The notes beneath the pieces are model-generated. The model was not told the origin of the DNA. It was given only the letters and a program-made list of their open reading frames with translations, and ran no database searches. From Ruegeria sp. A3M17 (lineage in GTDB: Bacteria > Pseudomonadota > Alphaproteobacteria > Rhodobacterales > Rhodobacteraceae), in the NCBI RefSeq assembly GCF_003318255.1, contig NZ_QOCF01000028.1, positions 372,001-436,000 of the forward strand: a DNA stretch of 64,000 nucleotides, given 5' to 3'. The position numbers and the translations under genes are program-made. Positions 53,531 to 54,749 of the stretch are shown here, in pieces. Each line of letters begins with the position of its first letter. Position 1 is the stretch's first letter.

Positions 53531-53561
53531 ATATATGGGCCGGGCGCGGGATCGGCGCAAC
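53531..53561 (-). promoter_or_regulatory. Possible sigma32 (RpoH) promoter of hslV
   Basis: On the minus strand GTTGCG (53561-53556) and CCATATAT (53538-53531) stand 17 bases apart, 25 bases upstream of the hslV ATG. The CCATAT-type -10 with a TTG-bearing -35 fits what I recall of alphaproteobacterial RpoH promoters. Prediction by eye; no scoring was done. Confidence 0.4.
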
Positions 53562-53702
53562 CCGTTGCACAACTGCCCAAAAGATATGCACAAAACGCAA
53601 ACCGGGGTTACCAGACCAGCAATTGTGAGTCCCCGCGCTTGGGACTACATGAGGCTCACAACCGACAACGGGTCGGCTGTTTCAGATATTAGGACTGGGA
53701 AC

Positions 53703-53897
53703 ATGGCAACAACTGCAAACATCCATGCCCCACTCGGAGCAGCTACCATCCTGCACGTAGTGGATGCATTCATCAATGTCTTCGAATCCGCTGTTGAGTG
53801 GAACGAAAGCCGCAAGACACGCAAGATCCTGTCGGGTCTGACCAACGCACAGCTGGAAGACATCGGTCTGGTGCGCGCAGACATCGCAAAAATCTGA
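53703..53897 (+). CDS. DUF1127-family small protein
   Basis: This 64-residue protein ends with RKILSGLTNAQLEDIGLVRADI, the DUF1127 (YjiS-like) signature of short arginine-rich proteins. In Rhizobiales and Rhodobacterales such proteins have been tied to RNA turnover, phosphate and carbon metabolism; no function is certain here. GGACTGGGAAC precedes ATG 53703. A strong terminator follows. Confidence 0.82.
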   Translation: MATTANIHAPLGAATILHVVDAFINVFESAVEWNESRKTRKILSGLTNAQLEDIGLVRADIAKI

Positions 53898-53925
53898 TCC
53901 CGCTATCAGAACCAGAATTTGAAGC

Positions 53926-53958: not shown

Positions 53959-54309
53959 TCAGCTTTGCACGTATTTACCAGCCTGATCCGGCAAAAACGC
54001 CTCGATCGCGGCTGAGGCGATGACATGGCGCGTGCCAGCGGCGTCATCCACAACATCCAACCCACCCTTGACGGCCCGCACTTCGGCGCGGCCCCTTGGC
54101 AGATCGGCGGCGACCTTGTCACAGTCAACCTCATCGGGTTGTTGAACGGCGATGGTCACCTGAACCCGCATCTCCGTGTGATCGATTCCAAGCTTGGAAA
54201 ACAGCGTGATCGACGAATGATGCAGAGCGTCCTGCACGGCACGACACGCCGCCTTGGTGTACAGATCGTTGCCGGTGCCCATTTCCAGAATAATACGCTT
54301 CTCGGTCAT
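53959..54309 (-). CDS. Lin0512-family protein, downstream copy
   Basis: This 116-residue protein has the pattern of the Lin0512 family: a short start RIILEMGTGNDLY, AACRAVQDALHHSSIT and VTIAVQQPDEVDCDKV, and a late GGLDVVDD block. It shares this layout with the next gene upstream, also 116 residues, and overlaps it by 4 bases. No function is established for the family. The small size and twin arrangement suggest that the two subunits form a complex, which is inference. Confidence 0.72.
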   Translation of the reverse strand: MTEKRIILEMGTGNDLYTKAACRAVQDALHHSSITLFSKLGIDHTEMRVQVTIAVQQPDEVDCDKVAADLPRGRAEVRAVKGGLDVVDDAAGTRHVIASAAIEAFLPDQAGKYVQS

Positions 54310-54656
54310 TGGGCGGGCTCCATGTCGAATGAGACGATGACCGCCGCATTGGCGATCACAGTGCGGCCATCGGTATGGGGTTTGTCGATATCCAGACCAC
54401 CCTGCGTTACCGTGATGTTGGGCTGGCCGTACGGAAAGATCGCCTTCAGCGTATCGGTATTGACCTTGTCGGGTTGTTGCACGCCCACCTCGGCGTCAAT
54501 GATCATCGCCTCTTTCGGAAACCCGAACAGCTCGGCCATGTTCACCGAGTTATGCCACAGCGCGTCTTTGATCGCCCGCAGCGCGGCTTCGGTATAATCC
54601 TCGCGCCGCAGGGACGTGCCCATCCCGAATTCCGCCAGAACCCGTGTTTTTGCCAT
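54306..54656 (-). CDS. Lin0512-family protein, upstream copy
   Basis: This 116-residue protein has RVLAEFGMGTSLRREDYTEAALRAIKDALWHNSVNMAEL and IDAEVGVQQPDKVNTDTL, followed by VTQGGLDIDKP. It is a paralog of the downstream gene, with matching EFGMGT/EMGTGN, ALRAIKDALWHNS/ACRAVQDALHHSS and VQQPD blocks. ATG 54656 (MAKTRVL) is chosen. It lies downstream of the trxA terminator on the same strand. Function unknown. Confidence 0.72.
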   Translation of the reverse strand: MAKTRVLAEFGMGTSLRREDYTEAALRAIKDALWHNSVNMAELFGFPKEAMIIDAEVGVQQPDKVNTDTLKAIFPYGQPNITVTQGGLDIDKPHTDGRTVIANAAVIVSFDMEPAQ

Positions 54657-54696
54657 TTGCGTCGCCTTCATTTGGTGGCCCGGTTGGGCCGTTCAC

Positions 54697-54726
54697 AAAA
54701 AAAGGGCGCCCAAATTCGGACGCCCC
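54697..54726 (-). terminator. Intrinsic terminator of trxA
   Basis: On the minus strand an 8-bp stem (GGGCGTCC with GGGCGCCC, one G-U pair) and a 6-base loop lead into a run of seven T. It lies 24 bases after the trxA stop and should end the tsaE-addAB-trxA transcription unit. Confidence 0.85.
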
Positions 54727-54749
54727 TGATCAATTCTGATCACACCGGA

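Follow-up and report, generated by a model that had tools for sequence, protein, structure and literature searches.

An overlapping pair of diverged Lin0512-family genes that is kept as a unit and may encode the subunits of one complex

The gene pair at the locus and its family

The window, by which we mean the whole stretch of 64,000 nucleotides analysed here, carries on its minus strand two genes of 116 codons each that belong to the Lin0512 family, and that we term copy B (upstream) and copy A (downstream). The original prediction had placed two 116-residue Lin0512-family genes here that share four bases, and both statements were confirmed: both open reading frames exist, both pass the PF09585 model, and the start codon of A shares the ATGA with the stop codon of B. 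The features of the locus are the following:

54306 to 54656, minus strand: Lin0512 copy B, the upstream gene (open reading frame; PF09585, 111.8 bits; B clade; AlphaFold pLDDT 84.8)
53959 to 54309, minus strand: Lin0512 copy A, the downstream gene (open reading frame; PF09585, 100.9 bits; A group; AlphaFold pLDDT 83.6)
54306 to 54309, minus strand: ATGA, start of A and stop of B, an overlap of 4 nt (from the sequence)
54318 to 54321, minus strand: GGAG, candidate ribosome-binding site for A within the 3′ end of B, 8 nt 5′ of the ATG (from reading the sequence)
54603 to 54617, minus strand: loop residues 14 to 18 of B, TSLRR, where single-copy members have x-D-x-H-G (from the alignment)
54253 to 54270, minus strand: loop of A, NDLYTK, without the YGQD of its relatives (an in-frame difference of 12 bp to the sister genome)
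54702 to 54727, minus strand: terminator-like hairpin in the interval between trxA and B (pattern match only)
53893 to 53916, minus strand: terminator-like hairpin 3′ of A (pattern match only)

For B, an alternative in-frame ATG at 54671 would give a protein of 121 amino acids, and the start giving 116 is preferred because it agrees with the relatives. Upstream of the pair, a domain search found a gene for thioredoxin and genes for two large UvrD/PD-(D/E)XK-domain proteins, putatively addA and addB. Downstream lie a DUF1127 gene on the other strand and then putative hslV and hslU genes, recognised by their domains; the DUF1127 gene (window 53535 to 53897, plus strand) sits between A and hslV and faces the pair. 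As terminator-like hairpins flank B and A, the pair may be a transcription unit of its own; three such sites were found by pattern matching, compared to 1.1 expected in shuffles.

The scores of B and A against PF09585 lie above its gathering cut-off of 23.4 bits. Against the NCBIfam model TIGR02058, B reaches 53.7 and A 47.3 bits, which is below the curated cut-off of 56.85, and the pair is a diverged branch that falls outside this narrower model. In a Pfam search at E up to 1, PF09585 was the sole match in the two 116-residue proteins, with no FtsZ GTPase domain, and the IspF family model PF02542 gave no match in either at the same limit. A literature search found no publication that mentions the Lin0512 family, its model accessions or the solved structure 3c8l. 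The family signature, which we take to be GxGxDxHG close to the N-terminus, has its G, G, D, H and G each present in 19 of 19 single-copy members found with the HMM. Single-copy members have one gene with this motif, while the window has two diverged genes, neither with the full motif (GTGNDLYT in A, GMGTSLRR in B).

A and B share 37% identity over 106 residues (E 1e-24, in a single comparison), a resemblance beyond chance, and we agree with the prediction that they are paralogs; the duplication is old. Their equal length, which had also been pointed out, is correct and yet partly accidental, since window A is without the YGQD of the loop that is present in the sister genome G038, where the A homologue has 120 amino acids, and in five other near relatives. 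This deletion may be recent. The comparison between window and sister genome (pN/pS of 0.097/0.738 for A and 0.070/0.674 for B, with synonymous sites near saturation) indicates that both window genes are under purifying selection, and such strongly conservative change in both genes argues that the pair is not like decaying genes.

Distribution, gene order and descent of the pair

We searched genomes at least 90% complete with the Pfam model and removed repeats by handle. The family was found in 32 of 120 genomes of the same family as the window, with two copies each, in 34 of 387 of the same class, in 26 of 348 of the same phylum and in 55 of 56 genomes of the order of G174, giving 131 distinct positive Pseudomonadota genomes (32 + 31 + 18 + 50 new). 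One B and one A are present in 116 of these, a single-copy-type gene in 14, and a single B/A chimera in the remaining genome, G1169. In none of the 131 did we find a lone intact A or B of the pair type, or the pair together with a single copy. We read the sequences for 97 of the 116 pairs (66 + 31; G1134, among the 31, has its A cut by a contig end), and the other 19 are counted as two family matches only. In G281, the two genes are located on different contigs (C123 and C92); both are retained, although each contig has room for the absent partner.

Elsewhere, it is normal for Lin0512 to be single-copy. In the phylum of a Paenibacillus centre, the family was found in 19 of 299 genomes with one copy each, and 20 named genomes picked from the pattern-based search comprise 16 with one copy and 4 with two. 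Tandem copies in Halobacillus and Aquibacillus (L086, L120, L129, L140) are likewise the product of tandem duplication, but an independent one: unlike A and B, they are 94 to 122 nt apart without overlap, and DxHG is kept in 8 of 8. G648 (L171, 6671 to 7321, plus strand), one of the 14 Pseudomonadota genomes with a single-copy-type gene, carries in addition a 45-residue Lin0512 fragment, probably a broken duplicate, near the intact copy; this fragment (below 95 residues) and the G791 pair, whose sequence was not retrieved, were left out of the rows used for sequence counts. Among the neighbours of singles at 80 loci, none recurs widely enough to name a function. By names given from sequence reading, the pair of the f55 group (L155, L182, L220) repeatedly has a DoxX-like gene nearby, and another DoxX-like gene is found near singles in seven Bacillota loci.

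The arrangement of the pair is constant. B is upstream of A in all 65 linked pairs that were read; a start codon giving a 4-nt overlap exists in 44 of them and one giving only a 1-nt overlap in 7 more, so that 51 of 65 could overlap by 4 or 1 nt (these are possible starts, and the starts used may differ). According to PMC10666635, genes encoding the subunits of heteromeric complexes show an enrichment of such short overlaps, which are also the commonest gene distances generally. For the latter reason the 4-nt overlap is by itself weak evidence; the original prediction had taken the duplicated, translationally coupled pair as a strong hint of an obligate hetero-oligomer.

We examined the descent of the pair in a large tree of 66 A, 66 B and 73 single rows. 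Here B forms one side of a branch (SH-aLRT 100); in a separate analysis the B branch was long (0.55). A needs three changes on the best large tree, the supported branches being compatible with one origin. In a smaller and more careful tree, A, with the G1169 gene inside, joins 11 Bradyrhizobium-like singles, which may once have had a B (support 99/95 for the grouping). This tree does not recover B as one clade, but it holds only 8 B rows, and the long row of G092 is drawn to the outgroup. With Bradyrhizobium-like singles adjoining A, an A-like gene can work without B. The distances among A and among B copies are correlated (r = 0.80 over 65 genomes, a value that 0 of 1000 permutations reached), as is expected anyway for linked, co-inherited genes. 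Collectively, the distribution and descent make it well supported that A and B are a unit kept whole. A survey for single or paired copies, as had been suggested, has two sides: an intact A or B of the pair type is never found by itself in the 131 genomes, but singles are normal elsewhere and some of them group next to A.

The single Lin0512 gene of G1169 (contig C36, locus L337, 5554 to 5871, minus strand) lies in the interior of a 21.6-kb contig. Its residues 1 to 13 are B-like (summed log2 odds -20.4; at best 85% identical to a B and 69% to an A), and the later blocks are A-like (+4.2, +24.5, +37.9, +11.4, +6.2). Outside the family of the window, 0 of 26 A copies have such a B-like start. 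The loop of this gene, GMGSDVHG, is the single-copy motif. The simplest reading of the sequence is that the gene would have arisen by recombination within the tandem pair, with the proviso that it is one genome and possibly an assembly artefact.

Predicted fold and diverging residues

We built single-chain AlphaFold models of B and A, using the two window proteins together with 60 relatives as input. The closest match of both window models is 3c8l (Z 15.1 for B; Foldseek E 4.1e-10 for A), a PDB entry from Nostoc punctiforme described as an "FtsZ-like protein of unknown function", which shares the PF09585 family with A and B. Both are predicted to fold like the C-terminal domain of FtsZ, the next-best fold (Z up to 7.8), a likeness that may mean only a common arrangement; FtsZ has a GTPase domain in addition, and the 116-residue A and B do not. 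A similar fold is also seen in IspF (2-C-methyl-D-erythritol 2,4-cyclodiphosphate synthase; Z about 6.6), and the same caution holds.

IspF binds metal via the Asp and His of GxGxDxH. This motif is at the same end of the domain in IspF and in Lin0512 singles, and a profile alignment of the singles pairs the two motifs. Using hhalign with 20 targets that included two reversed controls (28 of 30 IspF and 23 of 30 FtsZ loci were usable), the singles profile ranked IspF first of 20 (P 0.013, probability 3.4%) and FtsZ second, the latter with an end-to-end alignment that is not significant (P 0.083). With the profile of all members, IspF drops to third of 20, behind the unrelated hslV and hslU. The profiles do not show homology to IspF or FtsZ, and we treat the likeness of Lin0512 to IspF as a lead only.

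Next we examined the residues that distinguish A, B and singles, numbering positions as in window B. Asp15, His17 and Gly18 are each present in 73 of 73 singles and Asn14 in none. Because 60 of these 73 rows come from search patterns containing parts of the signature loop, the conservation in those 60 is partly by construction; the same result in the HMM-found singles (19 of 19 for each of the three residues, 0 of 19 for Asn14) indicates that it is real. The 66 A copies largely keep this loop, with Asp15 and Gly18 in 63 each and His (36) or Tyr (29) at position 17, where window A alone has a gap; unlike the singles, 59 of them have Asn14. In the 66 B copies the conserved His is always absent, position 17 being Arg (64) or Gln (2), and position 15 is Ser (43) or Asp (23). 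B also has a Trp34 of its own in 63 of 66, and Gly11, Gly13, Asp20, Thr22, Pro75, Gly77, Gly86 and Gly87 in 66 of 66.

Position 76 shows a different pattern: Tyr (67), Phe (5) or Asp (1) in the 73 single rows, Tyr (48) or His (18) in B, and Arg (41), His (8), Tyr (6), Val (6), Phe (3), Ala (1) or Gly (1) in A, the only group in which Arg is seen. In the HMM-found singles (n = 19) it is Phe (13), Ile (3), Val (2) or Tyr (1), and with 18 of 19 being Phe, Ile or Val, Tyr76 is no universal site residue. One of the L129 tandem copies has Asp at this position. As aligned, A and B have changed in different places.

Arg76 in A and Ser15 in B occur together in 40 of 65 pairs and are both absent in 21, with 4 pairs discordant. 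On the tree, Ser15 in B changed once and Arg76 in A four times. We therefore rejected covariation, as the single change in B makes this agreement close to one event instead of many independent ones.

Possible roles of the pair

We propose that an ancestral Lin0512 homomer became an A:B heteromer in the Alphaproteobacteria after one gene duplication, and that A and B would be made together from their overlapping reading frames. Each subunit would be a small single-domain protein with the predicted FtsZ C-terminal-like fold. In single-copy members, presumably homomers, the loop after strand 1 (GxGxDxHG) would most likely be a ligand or metal site at the subunit contact. The alignment shows that the two copies have specialised: A keeps Asp-x-(His/Tyr)-Gly, and often has Arg at 76 where B keeps Tyr or His, while in B the His of the loop has become Arg and the Asp often Ser. 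We consider it somewhat more probable than its opposite that A and B are the subunits of an obligate heteromer. With 116 pairs and no intact pair-type half alone in 131 genomes, the survey suggested by the original prediction favours a unit that stays whole, and the hetero-oligomer that it proposed is our inference.

One alternative to a heteromer is that A and B could be co-translated and still assemble only with themselves, as two homomers that do related jobs in the same pathway. In the models the full fold is kept by each copy, both genes are under purifying selection, and according to PMC7480870 the homomeric interaction appears to be retained in about half of the paralogue pairs found in E. 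coli complexes. Independent enzymes should however sometimes part, and no positive genome has one intact copy alone; furthermore, the sole single A-like gene, in G1169, is a chimera with a single-type loop. We consider separate homomers unlikely. To a similar extent we doubt that the role of B is to tune A, as a regulatory or inactive subunit, without a shared catalytic site. The missing His in 66 of 66 B copies, the missing Asp in 43 of 66 and the long B branch are what such a subunit might show, but the eight residues that B keeps throughout, together with its own Trp34, suggest that it is more than a scaffold.

The third alternative, which stems from gene context, assigns the pair to cobalamin biosynthesis as one of its components. 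We inspected 40 Rhodobacteraceae loci with about 7 kb on each side where the contig allows, and found the pair among cobalamin genes in 16 or 17 of them, L201 (cobP only) being doubtful. The neighbours include cobO, cobN, cobW, cobQ and bluB besides further cob genes, and at least two arrangements occur: cobO-B-A-cobQ with divergent cobW and cobN, where cobQ is downstream in 9 loci, and cobN-cobO-B-A-bluB (L185, L187, L214). One representative of each cob cluster was checked with NCBIfam, with CobG slightly below the cut-off. Loci in which the pair is placed between cobO on one side and cobQ or bluB on the other are L181, L185, L187, L196, L198, L202, L204, L208, L209, L213, L214 and others. 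In the family of the window, 29 of 32 pair genomes have CobH, compared to 60 of 88 others (Fisher p 0.017, a value that ignores kinship). A literature search for Rhodobacter cob genes together with bluB found no paper. Among 9 loci searched with Rfam, a single cobalamin riboswitch was found (in L181), and riboswitch control of the pair was rejected, as its strand and place fit the divergent cobW-cobN rather than the pair.

Against a cobalamin component, the window pair itself is located between trxA and hslV, one of seven Rhodobacteraceae loci with the addA-trxA context, and no member of the cob clusters was found at the 27 pair loci from other families (distant cob genes could escape the clustering). 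CobH is absent in 15 of 66 pair genomes, 12 of which are also without CobO above the cut-off (some of these are drafts). The cobalamin pathway is consequently not required for the pair, and we rejected it as the general function. The linkage to cob genes takes ten changes on the pair tree (16 loci used), which implies either repeated gains or losses of the linkage or poor resolution of the tree. We regard a cobalamin component as improbable; in some Rhodobacteraceae, not across the whole group, the work of the pair may be tied to the making of cobalamin.

Returning to the obligate heteromer, its two kinds of contact could differ. One tentative possibility, which we consider less likely than not, is that one A/B contact type keeps a working composite site and the other is degenerate. 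The partial loop loss in window A is awkward for that loop as a catalytic site. An equally speculative extension is that the site was split by reciprocal loss, A retaining the Asp-His/Tyr loop and B the Tyr/His before Gly77, which would lock the pair together; G1169 would then have escaped by placing the first strand of B on A, giving a single-gene homomer with a single-type loop. If true, this would be a natural case in which a homomer turned into a heteromer and later reverted.

Taken together, the pair probably represents two halves of one complex that elsewhere is seemingly built from a single protein. It offers handles on the Lin0512 family in the form of two subunits with different loop states, a natural chimera and cobalamin-linked genomes, and provides a compact case for studying the possible passage from homomer to obligate heteromer, and whether this is reversible.
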